Part shown: one piece after another, positions 49,846 to 59,873 of the stretch
How the letters are laid out: each line of letters starts with the position of its first letter
Numbering within the stretch: the stretch's first letter is position 1
From: Chryseobacterium sp. ISL-80
GTDB taxonomy: Bacteria > Bacillota > Bacilli > Bacillales > Cytobacillaceae
Direction: 5' to 3'
DNA: 64,000 nt
Assembly: GCA_018613055.1 (NCBI GenBank)
Contig: JAGGQZ010000001.1
Span: 28,348 to 92,347, forward strand
Program-made: the position numbers and the translations under genes
The notes under the pieces: generated by a model
Databases searched by the model: none
Told to the model about the DNA's origin: nothing
What the model saw: the letters and a program-made list of their open reading frames with translations, nothing else

Positions 49846-50550
49846 TTGACCGAAGTAGGTCCGGGTTCAGGTTCAGACAAAAACCAGCCGGCAATCACAG
49901 GAGTTGTCCGAGGTAGCCTCTAGTTAGGACAGCTTTTCGCCTGTCAGCACAAAAGTTGACCGAAGCAGCCTCTGGTTCGGACAGCTTTTCAACGGTAAGC
50001 ACGAAAGTTGTCCGAAGTAGCCTCTGGTTCGGACAGCTTTTCGCCTGTCAGCACAAAAGTTGACCGAAGTAGCCACTGGTTGGGACAGCTTTTCAACGGT
50101 AAGCACGAAAGTTGTCCGAAGTAGCCTCTGGTTCGGACAGCTTTTCGCCTGTCAGCACAAAAGTTGTCTGAAGTAGCCTCTGGTTCGGACAGCTTTTCAA
50201 CGGTAAGCACGAAAGTTGTCCGAAGTAGCCTATGATTCTGACAGCTTTCCAACGGTAACCGCAAAAGTTGTCCGAAGTAGCCACAAGTTCGGACAGCTTT
50301 TCAACGGTAAGCACGAAAGTTATCCGAAGTAGCCGTAAGTTCGGACAGCTTTTCAACCGTAAGCACAAAAGTTGTCTGAAGTAGCCTCTAGTTCGGACAG
50401 CTTTCCAACGGTAACCGCAAAAGTTGTCCGAAGTAGCCACAGGTTCGGACGGCTTTTCAACGGTAAGCAGTAAAGTTGTCCGAAGTAGCCGCAAGTTCGG
50501 ACAGCTTTTCAACGGTAAGCAATAAAGTTGTCCGAAGTAACCCCAGGTTC
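49846..50550. repeat. Tandem repeat array C, about 14 units of 52 bp
   Basis: About 14 imperfect units with a 52-bp period. The plus strand reads TTGTCCGAAGTAGCC, CTGGTTCGGACAGCTTTT, then CAACGGTAAGCACGAAAG or CGCCTGTCAGCACAAAAG. Read on the minus strand a unit is nearly the same as array B, so arrays B and C are one family in opposite orientation. The first interval is longer (58 bp), and the outer units are degenerate. The array fills the pbpB-spoVD gap after the pbpB terminator. Minus-strand open frames in it (up to 139 codons) are frame-rotating artefacts. Confidence 0.95.
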
Positions 50551-52632: not shown

Positions 52633-52971
52633 CCCGAATTCGGTTTCTTACTGAACAGACGATAGCAGGCGGCGGCAGGATCGAGATCCGCCGCTGCTTT
52701 TGCATGCTGAACCCAATTAAACTCTTATCTATTTGCTCTGTTTTGGCTCTGGGTGTTGCTTCTCGAACAATGATCCGGAATACTGTTTGTCAGAATATGT
52801 TGCTAAAGTGGAGATGCGGAAATATTCTTAAAAAATCCGGAACTGTTTTTCAACTTTGGTGTAAAGAGCCATCGATAAAAAGGGCTTATACTTTTCACCT
52901 CAACAATGGCTAATTTTAGCCTAATCATGTAAAATAAGAGTCGCCATGTTGTTTGAGAGGATTTGATATTT
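52633..52971 (+). other. spoVD-murE intergenic region
   Basis: This 339-bp gap carries the hairpin at 52664-52703 near its start. I see no credible gene in the remaining AT-rich sequence. The promoter for murE and the genes after it probably lies here, but I cannot define its hexamers. Confidence 0.5.
52664..52703 (+). terminator. GC-rich hairpin, probable terminator of spoVD
   Basis: AGCAGGCGGCGG / CCGCCGCTGCT stem with one bulge, a 12-base loop and a short TTTT tail. Confidence 0.65.
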
Positions 52972-54432
52972 ATGAAATTACACGAATTGATCGGGTATTT
53001 GCACCCTTTCGTGGATTACAAGGGAGAAAATCCCGAGATTACTTCGATTGAAAATGATAACCGCCGTGTGAATCCGGGAAGTTTATTCATATGCATTAAA
53101 GGCTATACAGTTGATGGCCATGATTTTGCCGGGGCGGCTGTAAAAAATGGGGCGGCAGCTGTTCTTGCTGAGCGCGAGCTGCCTGTCAATGTCCCGGTGA
53201 TTGTAGTGAAGGACACCATGCGGGCGATGGCAGTCCTTGCCGATGCTTTTTACGGCCAGCCAAGCCAGAAGCTACATATGGTTGGGATTACAGGGACGAA
53301 CGGAAAAACGACGACGAGCCATATTGTTGAAAAGATTTTCAAGGATGCCGGAAAAAAAACCGGTTTGATCGGGACAATGTACACGAAGATTGGCGAACAG
53401 ACATTTGAAGTGAAGAACACCACTCCGGAAAGTTTGACACTGCAGAAGACGTTCAAGAAAATGGTCGATGAACAGGTCGATACAGCTGTGATGGAGGTAT
53501 CCTCACATGCACTCGTCTATGGCCGTGTCCATGGTACAGACTATAATGTTGCAGTTTTTACGAATTTGACCCAGGACCATCTCGATTACCATAAAACCAT
53601 GGAAGAATACAAGAAGGCAAAAGGCTTGCTGTTTTCACAGCTTGGCAATGCCTTCCACCATGAAAACCCGAAATTTGCGGTATTGAATGCGGATGATCCG
53701 GCCAGCGAGGAATTCGCGATGCTGACAACTGCTCATTTATTGACCTACGGGATTGACAATCATGCCGACTTGCAGGCAACGAATATCTCCATGACTGCCA
53801 GTGGAACGTCATTTGATTTGGTAAGCCCATTTGGGGTAAGAAAGGTGAATATCCAGCTGATCGGCAAGTTCAGCATCTACAATGTTCTTGCGAGCATTGG
53901 GGCTGCCCTTGTATCCGGAATTTCGCTGGAGGCAATCATTGACTCTGTTGAAAGTGTCAAAGGAGTCTCAGGAAGGTTCGAAGTGGTTGATGCAGGACAG
54001 GATTTCTCTGTCATTGTAGACTATGCCCACACACCAGACAGTCTGGAGAACGTCCTGAAGACCGTGCAGCAATTTGCGCAAAAAAGAATTTTTTGTGTGG
54101 TTGGCTGCGGCGGGGATCGCGACCGCACTAAACGGCCGATCATGGCGAAGATTGCCTGCGAGTATTCAACAGATGCCATCTTCACCTCTGATAACCCACG
54201 CAGTGAGGAGCCGGCAGAAATCATCAAGGATATGGAAGAAGGAGTCAAGGGTGAAGTTTATACTTCGATCATTGACAGAAAAGAAGCGATCCAGCATGCT
54301 GTCAAAAATGCCGGCGCAGGCGATGTAATCCTGATTGCCGGAAAGGGACATGAAACGTATCAGCAAATTGGAGACAGAACGTTTGATTTCGATGACAGGA
54401 TTGTAGCGCGCGAGGCGATAGAGGAGAGGTAA
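52972..54432 (+). CDS. murE: UDP-MurNAc-tripeptide synthetase MurE
   Basis: A 486-residue Mur ligase that adds the third amino acid of the stem peptide. The N-terminal UDP-binding domain has [18 protein letters not shown]. The ATPase domain has the P-loop [13 protein letters not shown] (around residue 108). The C-terminal domain has DNPRSEEP (around 405), whose Arg is the signature for meso-diaminopimelate, so the cell wall is of the DAP type. I start at the ATG at 52972, matching B. subtilis MKLTKLL. The TTG at 52963 is too near the binding site. Confidence 0.95.
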
Positions 54433-54433
54433 T

Positions 54434-54883
54434 ATGCTGACATACCAGGATGTTTCGAGACTGTTTTCGAAAGTGAGTGGAATAAAAGAAGAAAAGATCC
54501 GCTTTCACACGGTAAGCAGCCAGGCAGGAGCCAAACAGCCAAAGGGACTGTTTGTTCCGGTATCCGAAGAATCCGGAACTTTACAGGAAGCGATTTCGAA
54601 TGGTGCCGTGGCAGCGCTATGGCCTGATGGAGTAAAGGTTCCGTCATATGCTCCCAATCACTTCCCGATTTTTTATGCACAAGATCATTTGAAAGGCTTA
54701 GAGGAAATCATGAATTTATATTATAACTATTTGACACAACACGAAGAAACCAGGGAAAGAACGAAATTCATTTTCCCTGACAAAGGACTTCTTAATGAAA
54801 CGGATGAAACATATGATATAGCTGTGATGGCCGAAAAAATCAATGGATTTGGCGGCAATATAAGCAAGGCAGGTGAGGAATAG
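54434..54883 (+). CDS. MurF/MurE N-terminal-domain-like protein without ATPase domain
   Basis: A 149-residue protein that resembles only the N-terminal (UDP-MurNAc-binding) domain of MurF/MurE. After the helix [14 protein letters not shown] comes [20 protein letters not shown], in place of the usual DSR...[20 protein letters not shown] and [25 protein letters not shown] follow, which correspond to the last strand and helix. No GTNGKT loop or later domain is present. The last 50 residues are unique. It starts two bases after the murE stop and ends just before mraY, so it belongs to the operon. MurF itself is not in the window. Confidence 0.82.
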
Positions 54884-54884
54884 A

Positions 54885-55859
54885 ATGCTGGAGCAAGTTA
54901 TCTTTTTCACAATATTAATGGGTTTTCTAATAACGGTCTTGCTTTCGCCAGTATTTATTCCTTTCCTGAGAAGGCTTAAATTCGGCCAGAGCATCAGAGA
55001 GGAAGGGCCAAAATCACACCAGAAAAAGACAGGAACTCCGACAATGGGCGGTGTCATGATTTTAATTTCCATCACAATCACGACACTTGTTATGACAGGA
55101 AAGTTCTCGCAGCCCACTGTGGAAACCTATCTTTTGCTATTTGTTACATTAGGGTTCGGACTCCTTGGTTTCATGGACGATTTTATCAAAGTCGTCATGA
55201 AGCGGAACCTTGGTTTGACTTCCAAGCAAAAATTGCTTGGTCAAATTATTATTTCCGTTATCTTTTTCTTCATTTTCAACCAAAGTGAATTATCGACAGT
55301 AGTCAGTATCCCGTTAACCGGTCTTTCTTTTGATCTTGGTTGGGGATACGCGCTGTTCATTATTTTTTGGATGGTCGGTTTCTCAAATGCTGTTAACCTG
55401 ACGGACGGGCTTGACGGGCTGGTTTCCGGTACGGCAGCCATTGCATTTGGTGCTTTTGCTGTCCTGGCATGGAACCAATCGCAATATGAGCTGTCGATTT
55501 TTTCTGTTGCAGTTGTTGGTGCTGTTCTAGGTTTTCTTGTATTCAACGCACATCCTGCAAAAGTGTTCATGGGTGACACCGGTTCACTTGCCCTGGGTGG
55601 TGCGATTGCAACTGTTGCCATCCTGGCTAAGCTTGAAATTATCCTGATCATCATTGGCGGAATCTTTGTCATCGAAACATTATCCGTGATCCTTCAGGTT
55701 ATTTCATTCAAGACAACAGGAAAAAGGATTTTCCGGATGAGTCCGCTTCACCACCACTATGAATTGATTGGCTGGTCGGAATGGCGGGTTGTTGTGACAT
55801 TCTGGACTGTCGGCCTGCTTTTCGCAATCCTTGGAATTTATATTGAGGTGTGGATCTAG
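54885..55859 (+). CDS. mraY: Phospho-MurNAc-pentapeptide transferase MraY
   Basis: A 324-residue ten-helix membrane enzyme that makes lipid I from UDP-MurNAc-pentapeptide and undecaprenyl phosphate. Family motifs: [16 protein letters not shown] (around residue 43), the acidic LGFMDDFIK (around 96), [13 protein letters not shown] (around 172), and the HHH motif SPLHHHYEL (around 289). The ATG at 54885 follows GGTGAGG and gives exactly the B. subtilis length. An in-frame GTG at 54873 is inside the binding site. murD begins at the next base after the stop. Confidence 0.96.
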
Positions 55860-57212
55860 ATGAAACATATTAAAACATATCAACATAAAAAAATTCTTGT
55901 ACTTGGCCTTGCCAAGAGCGGAGTCAGTGCTGCGGCTCTGCTACATAAACTAGGCGCTTTCGTTACAGTTAATGACAGCAAGCCATTATCGGAAAATCCC
56001 GAAGCACAGGGACTGCTTGAACAGGGAATCAAGGTGGTCTGCGGAAGCCATCCGATTGAATTGATGGATGAAGGATTCGAACTGGTCGTCAAGAATCCCG
56101 GCATCCCGTATTACAATCCAATGATCCAAAAGGCGGAAGAAAACGGGATCCCTGTCATTACCGAGGTTGAGCTGGCCTACCAGATATCAGAGGCGCCACT
56201 TGTAGGAATCACGGGAACAAACGGGAAAACCACGACAACAACTTTGATTTTTGAAATGCTCGAAGCCGGCAAAAAACAACCGCTGATTGCCGGGAATATC
56301 GGCACGGTTGCATCAGGTGTTGCCCAGGAAGCAACAGAGGAAAATACGATTGTCATTGAGCTTTCCTCATTTCAATTAATGGGTATCGACACATTCAAGC
56401 CAAAGATTGCCGTGATTACCAATTTGTACGATGCACATCTTGATTATCATGGGACAAGAGAAGAATATATTGCAGCGAAAGCGTTGATCACGAAGAACCA
56501 GACTGAAGAGGACTACTTGATCGTGAACGCTGATCAGGAAGAAGTCATGAACATCGCACGCGCTTCAAAAGCTCAAATCGTGCCTTTTTCGACGAAAGAA
56601 GTCTTGGACAGCGGGGCTTATGTGAAGGATGGATGGGTTTGTTTCAATGGGGAGCAAATCATTGAAACAAAGGATATTGTTTTACCTGGTAAGCATAATC
56701 TGGAGAATATCTTGTCAGCTGTTGCGGCAACTTTGCTATCAGGAGCGGATCAAGAAGCGATTTTCAAAGTGCTTACAACCTTTGCTGGAGTCCGCCACAG
56801 ACTTCAATATGTCGGCAGTAACGCCGGACGGAAGTTTTATAATGACTCGAAAGCAACGAATATACTGGCAACCGAAAATGCCCTGGCAGCTTTTGATGAC
56901 CCAATCGTATTGCTTGCCGGCGGTCTGGACAGAGGGAATTCCTTTGATCAACTTGTCCCCTCGTTAAAAAACGTCAAGGTATTGATTACTTTTGGAGAGA
57001 CTGCTGAAAAAGTGGGACAGGCTGGACATGAGGCAGGAATAAAAACGATTCTCCGCGTCGATAATGTGGAAAAGGCCGTTCCCGTGGCGTTCGAACATTC
57101 AGTACCCGGAGATGTCATTCTGCTCTCACCGGCATGTGCCAGCTGGGACCAATATAAAACTTTTGAAGTCAGGGGAGACATGTTTATCGAGGCCGTGCAT
57201 AAGCTTAAGTAA
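55860..57212 (+). CDS. murD: UDP-MurNAc-L-alanine:D-glutamate ligase MurD
   Basis: A 450-residue cytosolic Mur ligase that adds D-glutamate to UDP-MurNAc-L-alanine. The N-terminal Rossmann-like domain has [20 protein letters not shown] (around residues 15-34). The P-loop [12 protein letters not shown] is around residue 118, followed by [15 protein letters not shown]. The C-terminal FYNDSKATN and [19 protein letters not shown] are hallmarks. The ATG directly follows the mraY stop codon. Confidence 0.96.
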
Positions 57213-57312
57213 GGGCTTGTCTTGAACAACATGACTCAGGTTGCCTGGCCTCATGCAGGCTGGATGGGAAGCGGCATATGAGCCCTAAATCATACAGCCG
57301 AGGTGTATTGCT

Positions 57313-58413
57313 TTGCCAACGAAAAAATCGACTCCAGACATATTCCTGATGATTGTAACCTTTGCACTTTTGACTGTGGGACTGATCATGGTTTACAGTT
57401 CAAGTGCTGTCTGGGCAGACTATAAGTTTAATGACTCTTTCTTTTTTGCGAAACGGCAAATGCTGTTTGCGGGGGTCGGAATCATTGCGATGTTTTTTAT
57501 CATGAATATTGACTACTGGACGTGGCGGACATGGTCAAAGGTCATCCTGATTGTCTGTTTTGTCCTGTTGGTCCTGGTATTAATCCCCGGGATCGGGAAT
57601 GTACGGAATGGCTCAAGGAGCTGGATTGGCGTAGGCGCTTTTTCGGTCCAGCCATCCGAATTCATGAAAATTGCGATGATTGCCTTCCTCGCGAAATTTT
57701 TGTCGGAGAACCAGAAGGCAATTACCTCTTTTAAAAGAGGTCTTGTGCCCTCGCTGGGGCTTGTCTTTTTGGCATTTGGCCTGATTATGCTGCAGCCGGA
57801 TCTGGGTACAGGAACAGTGATGGTCGGCACTTCAGTTGTCATCATTTTTATCGCCGGAGCAAGAATCAGTCATTTCGTGGGACTTGGTCTCCTTGGTGTC
57901 GCCGGTTTTGTCGGCTTAATAGCCTCTGCGCCTTACAGAATCAAACGGATCACTTCCTTTCTTGACCCATGGCAGGACCCACTGGGAAGCGGGTTTCAAA
58001 TGATTCAATCACTCTATGCCATAGGGCCCGGAGGATTGTTCGGACTGGGGCTGGGACAAAGCCGGCAAAAATTCTTTTATCTCCCGGAACCACAGACGGA
58101 TTTTATCTTTGCGATTCTGGCTGAAGAGCTCGGATTCATTGGAGGATCATTGATTCTTCTCTTATTCTCTTTACTCCTCTGGAGGGGCATCAGGATTGCG
58201 CTCGGTGCACCGGATTTGTTCGGTACATTTCTTGCGACTGGGATCATCGCGATGATCGCCATCCAGGTCATGATCAATATCGGGGTTGTTACGGGCCTTA
58301 TGCCTGTAACAGGGATCACACTACCATTCCTGAGCTATGGGGGCTCTTCCCTTACATTGATGCTGATGGCGGTTGGAGTGCTGTTGAATATTAGCCGTCA
58401 CTCAAGGTATTAA
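57313..58413 (+). CDS. spoVE: Stage V sporulation protein E (SEDS glycosyltransferase)
   Basis: A 366-residue SEDS protein with ten membrane helices that makes spore cortex peptidoglycan together with SpoVD. Motifs are RSWIGVGAFSVQPSEFMKIA (around residue 98), MLQPDLGTGTVMV (around 158), QSLYAIGPGGLFGLGLGQS and FLSYGGSS. It is shorter than the FtsW at 10521 and lies between murD and murG, the place of spoVE in B. subtilis. The TTG at 57313 has GAGGTG seven bases upstream. The 100 bases after murD contain no gene. Confidence 0.93.
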   Translation: MPTKKSTPDIFLMIVTFALLTVGLIMVYSSSAVWADYKFNDSFFFAKRQMLFAGVGIIAMFFIMNIDYWTWRTWSKVILIVCFVLLVLVLIPGIGNVRNGSRSWIGVGAFSVQPSEFMKIAMIAFLAKFLSENQKAITSFKRGLVPSLGLVFLAFGLIMLQPDLGTGTVMVGTSVVIIFIAGARISHFVGLGLLGVAGFVGLIASAPYRIKRITSFLDPWQDPLGSGFQMIQSLYAIGPGGLFGLGLGQSRQKFFYLPEPQTDFIFAILAEELGFIGGSLILLLFSLLLWRGIRIALGAPDLFGTFLATGIIAMIAIQVMINIGVVTGLMPVTGITLPFLSYGGSSLTLMLMAVGVLLNISRHSRY

Positions 58414-58778
58414 GCTGAACACATGATAAAGACCCTGATTACAGGGTCTTTTATTTGTGGTGATTTTTCATTATGGAATACCTGATTTTACGGTTAGTGT
58501 ATCAAGACTGAAAAAGAATCCCGGAAAATCGGACATGAACGATGAATATGTTAGGAATATGCCTATGTTCATGCTATATTACATTTAAATAACAATATCT
58601 TAAAAAACTGTTCTACAGTTTAGAATATAGTAGAATAGGGTAAAACCGGGGAGTGCCTTTTTATGGGCACTTTTGACGATTATTTCTGTCATTGCGCTCG
58701 GAGCTGCTGCCGAAAGTGGCGGTCAAATGCGTGATTGACAGCAATTCAAAAAAGAGATAAGTTGCTGAGGTGTGGAAA
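58414..58778 (+). other. spoVE-murG intergenic region
   Basis: After the spoVE terminator this 365-bp gap contains no gene. TAGAATATAGTAGAAT at 58621-58636 may include a -10 element for murG. A small hairpin GTGCC / GGCAC with TTTT at 58653-58674 lies in the murG leader and could act as a weak attenuator. Confidence 0.4.
58428..58457 (+). terminator. Rho-independent terminator of spoVE
   Basis: AAAGACCCTG / CAGGGTCTTT stem with loop ATTA and T-rich tail. Confidence 0.88.
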
Positions 58779-59873
58779 ATGAAGATTGCAGTTAGCGGCG
58801 GCGGTACAGGAGGACATATTTATCCTGCGCTTGCACTAATCAGGGAGATTCAAAAAAAGGATGAAAATGTTGAGTTTCTTTACATAGGAACAGAAAAGGG
58901 TCTCGAAAGCAAGCTCGTGCCGAGGGAGAAGATCCCTTTTAAGTCAATACATATCACAGGCTTCAAACGGAAACTTTCTTTTGAAAATGTAAAAACGGTG
59001 CTGCGATTCCTGAAGGGCGTAAGGGATAGTAAAAAAATGCTGAAGGAATTTAACCCTGATGTTGTCATTGGCACAGGAGGCTATGTGTGTGGCCCGGTTG
59101 TCTATGCAGCCGCCAAAATGGGCATACCAACAATTGTCCATGAACAAAACAGCGTACCAGGTTTGACCAATAAATTCTTGAGCCGTTACGTTGATAAGGT
59201 TGCCATCTGCTTCGAGGAAGCAAGGCAGTTTTTTCCGGAACAAAAGGTCGAATTGACAGGCAATCCCCGCGCGTCTGAAGTGTTGGGACAGGATGGAATC
59301 AAGGGGAGGCTGTCTGCAGGGCTTAAGCTTAAGGTGCCGACTGTGCTGATCTTCGGAGGAAGCAGAGGTGCCAGGCCGATTAATGAGGCGGTAGTCAAAA
59401 GCCTGACAGAATTAAGCAGTAAACCATATCAAGTATTATATGTAACTGGTGATGTGCATTTTGAAGAAGTCCAGAAAGAAGTGGAACTGGTTGGGAATCC
59501 AGTAAACGTGATTATCAAGCCATTCATACACAATATGCCTGAAGTGCTGGCCGGTGTTGATTTGACGGTAGCAAGAGCTGGAGCGACTACACTAGCTGAA
59601 CTGACATCTCTGGGAATACCGAGCATACTGATTCCTAGCCCATACGTAACAGACAACCACCAGGAAAAGAATGCACGGGCATTAAGTGAGAACGGAGCAG
59701 CACGCCTGCTGCTTGAAAAAGACCTGACTGGGCCGAAGCTGGTTGAGGGTATTGACCAGATTCTCGGGCAGGAACAGAAACTTGCTGATATGAAAAAAGC
59801 AGCAAAGAAACTCGGTATACCAGATGCTGCCCAAAGGCTCTATCGTTTGATGGAGGAACTGGCCGCAAAGTAG
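58779..59873 (+). CDS. murG: Lipid II synthase MurG
   Basis: A 364-residue peripheral membrane glycosyltransferase (GT-B) that transfers GlcNAc from UDP-GlcNAc to lipid I. The N-terminal glycine loop is [15 protein letters not shown] (residues 6-20). [17 protein letters not shown] and [15 protein letters not shown] follow. The donor-site [10 protein letters not shown] is around residue 264, and [12 protein letters not shown] is further on. The ATG at 58779 follows GAGGTG. murB follows after 64 bp. Confidence 0.96.

Follow-up and report, generated by a model that had tools for sequence, protein, structure and literature searches.

A lone MurF N-terminal domain between murE and mraY and a proposed sporulation promoter in its 3' end

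The stretch of DNA analyzed here (the window) comprises 64,000 nucleotides from Chryseobacterium sp. ISL-80 and contains, between murE and mraY, a gene for little more than the first domain of a Mur ligase (Table 1). The frame is intact and lies 1 bp from murE and 1 bp from the ATG of mraY, and the P-loop GxTGSNGKT, the middle domain, and the C-terminal ligase domain are absent, all of which agrees with the original prediction; the Pfam scan gave neither a C-terminal-domain match nor a Mur_ligase_M match, the latter being present in murE. Comparative analysis supports, with moderate confidence, the reading of the gene as a dead dcw MurF N-domain that would act as a partner of Mur enzymes and whose 3' end would contain a sporulation promoter for mraY.

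Table 1. Features of the murE-mraY region (positions in the window)
Feature	Position	Strand	Remarks
murE	52963..54432	+	Upstream neighbor
Stand-alone MurF N-domain gene	54434..54883, stop included	+	ATG start, 149 aa
Mur-ligase N-domain part, residues 1-105	54434..54748	+	Purifying selection on protein; UDP-binding motifs lost
DNA-constrained stretch, codons 118-132	54785..54829	+	Very low synonymous divergence
TCTTAAT, proposed -35 element	54790..54796	+	
CATATGATA, proposed -10 element	54810..54818	+	13 bases past TCTTAAT
AGGTGAGGA, likely mraY ribosome-binding site	54871..54879	+	Within the last codons of the gene
mraY	54885..55859	+	Downstream neighbor and presumed promoter target
murD	55860-57212		Name by position and reading
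spoVE	57313-58413		Name by position and reading
murG	58770-59873		Name by position and reading

Distribution and descent of the gene

The short gene is present in all 21 genomes of the genus, its own included, and encodes 149 aa in each. At the family level, a match at an E value of ≤1e-7 is seen in 145 of 193 genomes, in each case in an open frame of 136 to 181 aa; the family tally amounts to 183 matches, and most of those beyond the 145 are full MurFs. At the same threshold, 13 of the 25 family genera have a short-gene match and 12 do not. Loss of the N-domain is thus frequent, and many lineages can do without the protein. Among the carriers are Mesobacillus, Cytobacillus, Neobacillus, Robertmurraya, Niallia, Anoxybacillus calidus, Bacillus methanolicus, and Heyndrickxia sporothermodurans, and a scan of named genomes found a relative encoded on 179 contigs, of which 80 were kept. 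Of the 70 family loci in which murE and mraY were both found, 69 have an ORF of ≥125 aa between these genes. Among the family loci, L053 has a broken copy, L044 is without the start region, and the murE frame of L019 ends early. Two broken copies of the short gene were seen (loci L053 and L186), with G413 and G052 as genomes containing broken copies.

The fragment occupies the place of murF, as had been predicted, with relatives holding a full MurF in the same slot. An order-wide profile search, MurFs included, yielded matches in 290 of 348 genomes, and the strong ones among them were of two kinds. At 60 such loci, the murE-mraY slot contains 26 short genes (that of L186 broken), 31 full MurFs, and two decayed MurFs of 313 aa, and the remaining locus stops at a contig end. 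A tree of MurE plus MraY from 127 loci splits into halves of 85 and 42 rows with a branch support of 90. The larger half comprises 48 short genes, 2 broken copies, 17 loci with the tail only, 18 with none, and no full MurF; the smaller one comprises 36 full MurFs, 3 decayed copies, 3 loci with none, and no short gene. In a rooted tree of the N-domain (61 rows), the short genes form one clade (100/99), group with the slot MurFs (100/99), and are nested within them (86/85), and a grouping of the short genes with the ddl-linked MurFs is rejected (p 0.0019); this tree is based on 105 columns, with a bootstrap that was not fully settled and an outgroup, MurFs from other orders, that did not form one clade. 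A smaller N-domain tree without the outgroup does not reject the grouping with the ddl-linked MurFs (p 0.50). The row subsets of both trees were chosen by hand, 10 MurFs were left out, their P-loop variant having escaped the pattern used, and no placement was reached for the decayed MurF of L308. Among the outgroup loci, murF lies with murE and mraY in 17 of 26 and with ddl in 8, so the murE-mraY slot is probably the ancestral position of murF. Both the grouping in the rooted tree and the shared slot argue for descent of the fragment from the dcw MurF.

The full murF expected near ddl is likewise found in the genome of the window, in which a MurF of 459 aa adjoins ddl. A full MurF elsewhere occurs in all 49 family genomes searched (24 with the short gene, 1 with a broken copy, and 24 with none), and another full MurF likewise occurs in all 25 short-gene genomes searched from other families, including one with a broken short gene. 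At every locus of the non-slot MurF that was examined, 30 in the family and 20 elsewhere, ddl adjoins the gene. Among the 31 genomes with a full MurF in the slot, only G429 contains a second MurF below an E value of 1e-90. A further MurF with 46 to 49% identity is found in G185, G061, and G084.

Several other MurF arrangements were observed during these searches. The one match on a plasmid, found in Priestia, turned out to be a MurF-like ORF of full length. In the one-contig genome G162 (L380 and L324), the frame of the ddl-linked MurF seems broken and the short gene lacks its first codons, for which sequencing errors are a possible cause. Separate decay of the slot MurF is seen in L191 and L192 (G399 and G442) and in L308 (G217), with products of 313 and 302 aa that have lost the P-loop and kept the N-domain; the UDP motifs are lost in L191 and L192. 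Locus L382 (979-2556) encodes a Mur ligase of 525 aa beside ddl with only the Pfam M and C domains, in which hydrophobic segments replace the N-domain. Similar frames of 529 to 548 aa occur in G399, G217, G227, and G266, with L382 as the one example scanned with Pfam. The five genomes of this type show no MurF match to the canonical query at an E value of 1e-45, and their slot MurF is decayed or missing.

Selection on the N-domain

Within the genus, NG86 medians of dN/dS are 0.141 for codons 2 to 105, 0.419 for the tail, 0.033 for murE, and 0.015 for mraY, calculated from pairs with a dS of 0.1 to 1.5 (177 of 210 for the N-domain, 187 of 210 for the tail, 70 of 153 for murE, and 136 of 190 for mraY). 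This indicates that the N-domain is constrained as a protein, less so than its neighbors. The original prediction had argued against simple decay, and its view is borne out by purifying selection at about 0.14, by the conservation of the gene in genus and family, and by frames that are open almost throughout the family instead of frequently shifted. A pseudogene was rejected on the same open frames and dN/dS value; the two broken copies and the startless L044 are noted above.

The main rival explanation regards the N-domain as a mere decaying remnant with an idle protein product, the frame of which is kept by the promoter, the ribosome-binding site, and translational coupling of murE and mraY. 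The dN/dS of the N-domain, ∼4 times that of murE and ∼9 times that of mraY, is in line with this explanation, as are the broken copies in G413 and G052. The same applies to the 17 family loci with the tail only, in which the gap between murE and mraY contains a mini-ORF of 39 to 59 aa comprising the tail without the domain. These loci are scattered in the tree with at least 10 label changes, 7 of them forced by starred branches, and 16 of the 17 retain the DNA element described below. The absolute dN/dS of 0.14 and the long ORF at 69 of the 70 loci stand against an idle protein, together with a core that is invariant across 26 diverse short-gene sequences (G38, A53, I54, G57, A58, W63, P70, P74, and F77) while its synonymous codons vary freely, near background rates. 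An idle remnant is considered unlikely, and a protein retained for a function of its own is preferred.

The tail as DNA and the candidate promoter

The end of the protein had been described as about 50 unique residues. Codons 118 to 132 of this tail are conserved as DNA; the notion of a unique protein domain does not hold, or not mainly. Across murE, the fragment, and mraY of 18 genomes, the synonymous divergence (pS) of 810 windows of codons is lowest at codons 119 to 132 of the fragment, with 0.083 compared to a median of 0.555, and the 14-codon windows 119 to 132 and 118 to 131 are the two lowest of all. Ten of the 15 lowest windows lie in fragment codons 116 to 138 and five in mraY. One of the latter, codons 168 to 181 of mraY (positions 55386-55427), ranks fourth with a pS of 0.095 and could be another DNA-level signal.

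The constrained stretch contains the element TCTTAAT-N13-CATATGAT (positions 54790-54817). Among the distinct upstream stretches of every kind (220), 103 contain the full pattern, all with identical spacing although 12 to 18 bases were allowed. A weight matrix was built from 44 training instances in L001 to L073, which include 24 family short-gene loci and no tail-only, full-MurF, or other-family loci, and a locus was counted when its score exceeded all of 1270 shuffles. By this measure, the element is present in 18 of the 24 family short-gene loci, which belong to the training set and of which 6 fall below the shuffles, as well as in 16 of 17 tail-only loci, 1 of 2 broken loci, and 11 of the 24 short-gene loci from other families. 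The other 13 of these do not score, and one scoring locus, L174, lacks CATATGAT. None of the 36 full-MurF loci, 21 loci with none, and 3 decayed loci exceeds the shuffles. The label "tail" was given by eye, which makes its agreement with the element circular in part. In some other families, the upstream half is CATAAT or CATATT (L168, L170, L171, L172, L175, and L176). Genome-wide, the strict element is single-copy, and with up to 2 mismatches there are 20 matches compared to 11 in the reversed control; a regulon is thus not demonstrated.

The downstream half, CATATGAT, resembles the -10 sequence CATA..AT of sigma-E. Upstream of spoIID, a pair of CATA sequences with a spacer is found in 12 of 15 family genomes, the second half reading CATATG in 8. 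Under a strict rule, 4 of 15 spoIID regions (ATA-N16-CATA) and 0 of 15 spoIVA regions are recovered, which makes the assignment to sigma-E a loose one; the same rule finds 52 of 80 named loci for mraY (51 with TTA-N15 and 1 with ATA-N15), compared to 0.03 for shuffled sequence. The family of the window mostly has TTA rather than ATA at -35 and 15 bases to CATA versus 16 in spoIID. According to the excerpted text of PMC3789822, sigma-E and sigma-K share common -10 sequences, sigma-E has ATA at -35, and one sigma-E-like promoter has TTA 15 bp upstream of the -10 box. In B. subtilis, spoVE-murG of the murE-mraY-murD-spoVE-murG operon is controlled by sigma-E, as stated in the part of PMC1925097 consulted, and the corresponding part of PMC517825 names the sigma-E promoter P2 of spoVE as predominant and P1 as secondary. 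A sigma-E-like site before spoVE was found by a simple rule in 1 of 79 loci, a count that says little since a similar rule missed 11 of 15 spoIID and 15 of 15 spoIVA regions. The likeness to spoIID, the mraY counts, and the published sigma-E features together indicate that the element is most likely a promoter, with sigma-E as its probable factor. The papers searched, from a collection without most subscription journals and judged by title and the opening of the abstract except for the four cited here, mention neither this fragment nor, for these bacteria, a promoter ahead of mraY.

Alternatively, the element could be a promoter of another sigma factor, in particular sigma-A (TTCTTA-N17-TATGAT), or an operator or RNA element. 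TATGAT and its 17-base spacer to TTCTTA fit the spacing of sigma-A promoters, the -35 consensus of which is TTGACA. TTCTTA is far from this consensus, yet its C and the next T are conserved at 0.98 and 0.93, and the -35 place is taken by TCATATT in L168 and by TCATAAT in L170 and L171. For an operator, it can be said that SpoIIID and like regulators bind at sigma-E promoters, as far as the excerpt of PMC517825 goes. Such readings appear rather unlikely compared to a sigma-E promoter.

The constraint could also reside in the peptide, with the tail as a conserved interaction motif (LLNE...TYDIAVM) or as a leader peptide of mraY. The mini-ORFs of 16 of the 17 tail-only loci have a start codon and end ≤8 bp from the mraY start, and at I129 and V131 the third positions vary while the amino acids remain constant, both as expected of a peptide. 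The lowest pS of 810 windows is contrary to this, as is the frozen choice of codons in a survey of 140 distinct sequences out of 175 collected: CTT in 83 of 86, ACA in 108 of 110, TAT in 117 of 119, GAT in 116 of 119, and GCT in 89 of 106. In addition, the T before CT[TG]AA is conserved at 0.96 compared to 0.74 and 0.72 for the two preceding bases of the same codon. Both other frames of the element in the window are interrupted by stops (TAA and TAG). Any gene that crosses the element is therefore bound to read LLN...TYDIA, the frame being dictated by the DNA. A peptide as the main object of conservation is accordingly improbable, and the tail is better regarded as DNA-constrained. Near its end, in the region of the ribosome-binding site, the AGG codon at R148 is found in 79 of 82 relatives.

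Fold and proposed role

The original prediction of a MurF-like N-domain, and of structural similarity to the N-domains of Mur ligases, was confirmed by modeling. An AlphaFold2 model built on 55 sequences has an overall pLDDT of 81.9, with 86 to 94 per block in residues 1 to 100, 63 to 77 in the tail, and <50 in residues 141 to 149. The top Foldseek match of the model is MurF 4cvm (E value of 8.5e-4, the sole match below 1e-3), followed by MurF 4cvl, a plastid polymerase subunit, MurE 4c13, and MurF 2am1. VIA matches are MurE 2wtz (Z 10.5), MurF 2am1 (Z 10.2), and LpxD (Z up to 8.0). The Mur N-domain fold is thus present in the modeled fragment. Pfam and NCBIfam scans of the single protein gave no match at an E value of ≤1 (≤10 with NCBIfam for the N-part), and the PDB profile search gave no Mur ligase up to an E value of 1. 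The kinship therefore rests on structure, synteny, and the genome profile search, in which the short gene matches full-length slot MurFs with a best E value of 6e-27.

Comparison of 39 short genes with 30 slot and 48 ddl-linked MurFs, 10 MurFs with a variant P-loop being left out, shows that the core residues L36, P39, A54, G59, A60, W65, P72, P73, F76, P77, and Y95 are largely retained. In the fragment, residues D27, R29, G42, G47, and H48, which are near-invariant in the MurFs, have been lost or deleted. The missing motifs, D-[ST]-R and G...DGH, hold the UDP moiety in MurE and MurF structures, and a sensor of UDP-MurNAc is therefore unlikely. The suggestion of the original prediction that the fragment is a regulator binding UDP-MurNAc-peptide, which fold and locus shared with MurF would favor, is highly improbable given these losses, including that of the G47-H48 loop in 97% of the 39 short genes, and given that the separately decayed MurFs of L191 and L192 lost the same motifs.

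In the preferred reading, the gene would be the remainder of the dcw-cluster murF. A ddl-linked MurF would have taken over the reaction in an ancestor of the group. Comparison shows that the copy in the dcw cluster has lost the ATPase and C-terminal domains along with the UDP-binding residues, and this order of events is the probable one. The N-domain has stayed subject to purifying selection; the small protein is predicted to fold and would most likely serve as a non-catalytic partner of adjacently encoded Mur enzymes such as MurE, MraY, or MurG. Indirectly, selection, fold, and position are in keeping with a partner beside MurE and MraY, structural or regulatory, and a contact with MurE, MurF, or MraY, as originally proposed, is possible. 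The new 3' end carries the constrained element, TCTTAAT-N13-CATATGAT, and the mraY ribosome-binding site. Judged by motif, position, and the comparison with spoIID, the element, probably a mother-cell sigma-E promoter, would drive mraY-murD-spoVE-murG during sporulation for the supply of cortex precursors. More tentative, and on balance doubtful, is the full combination of these parts: a dedicated non-catalytic subunit of the MurE/MraY/MurG assembly in spore-formers, encoded by the same gene whose mother-cell promoter switches mraY-murD-spoVE-murG to cortex synthesis, both having been made by the truncation and the promoter having outlived the protein in many lineages.

The fragment shares the N-domain fold, the murE-mraY position, and descent with the dcw MurF, the UDP-MurNAc-tripeptide:D-Ala-D-Ala ligase, but lacks the P-loop, the C-terminal domain, and the UDP-binding motifs, and another MurF is available for the reaction. 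The plastid RNA polymerase chains 8r6s_Q and 8xzv_J, which are among the Foldseek and VIA matches and presumably represent a MurE-like structural subunit, are Mur-ligase relatives in a complex unrelated to the cell wall; they are near full length and come from the plant plastid. The Bordetella MurE-MurF fusion binds MurG, for which contacts with MraY, MurD, MurE, and MurF are cited, and as described in the excerpt of PMC6420597 it joins MurF to MurE in MurG-scaffolded multienzyme complexes. In contrast to this catalytically active fusion, the fragment is a lone domain without an active site. The spoVE-murG genes of B. subtilis likewise have a mother-cell promoter within the dcw operon, as far as the parts of PMC1925097 and PMC517825 consulted show; the promoter proposed here would lie two genes further upstream, ahead of mraY and within the terminal part of a protein-coding gene.

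The fragment would represent a natural split of the catalytic and non-catalytic roles of MurF, and should the lone domain still be of importance, it would mark the part of MurF that organizes cell wall precursor synthesis. If the promoter is real, a conserved promoter is concealed in the coding sequence of the well-known dcw cluster, where protein annotation alone takes the promoter-bearing stretch for an odd C-terminal tail. This provides a testable account of the supply of cortex synthesis in these spore-formers.

Two minor features were observed elsewhere in the cluster. Upstream of spoVD, at positions 49989-50512 of the window, lies repetitive sequence that corresponds to repeated peptide units in reverse-strand ORFs. 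Between murD and spoVE, at about 57213-57290, an inverted repeat (GGGCTTGTC...AGCCCTAA) is found, with further instances at many of the named loci listed.
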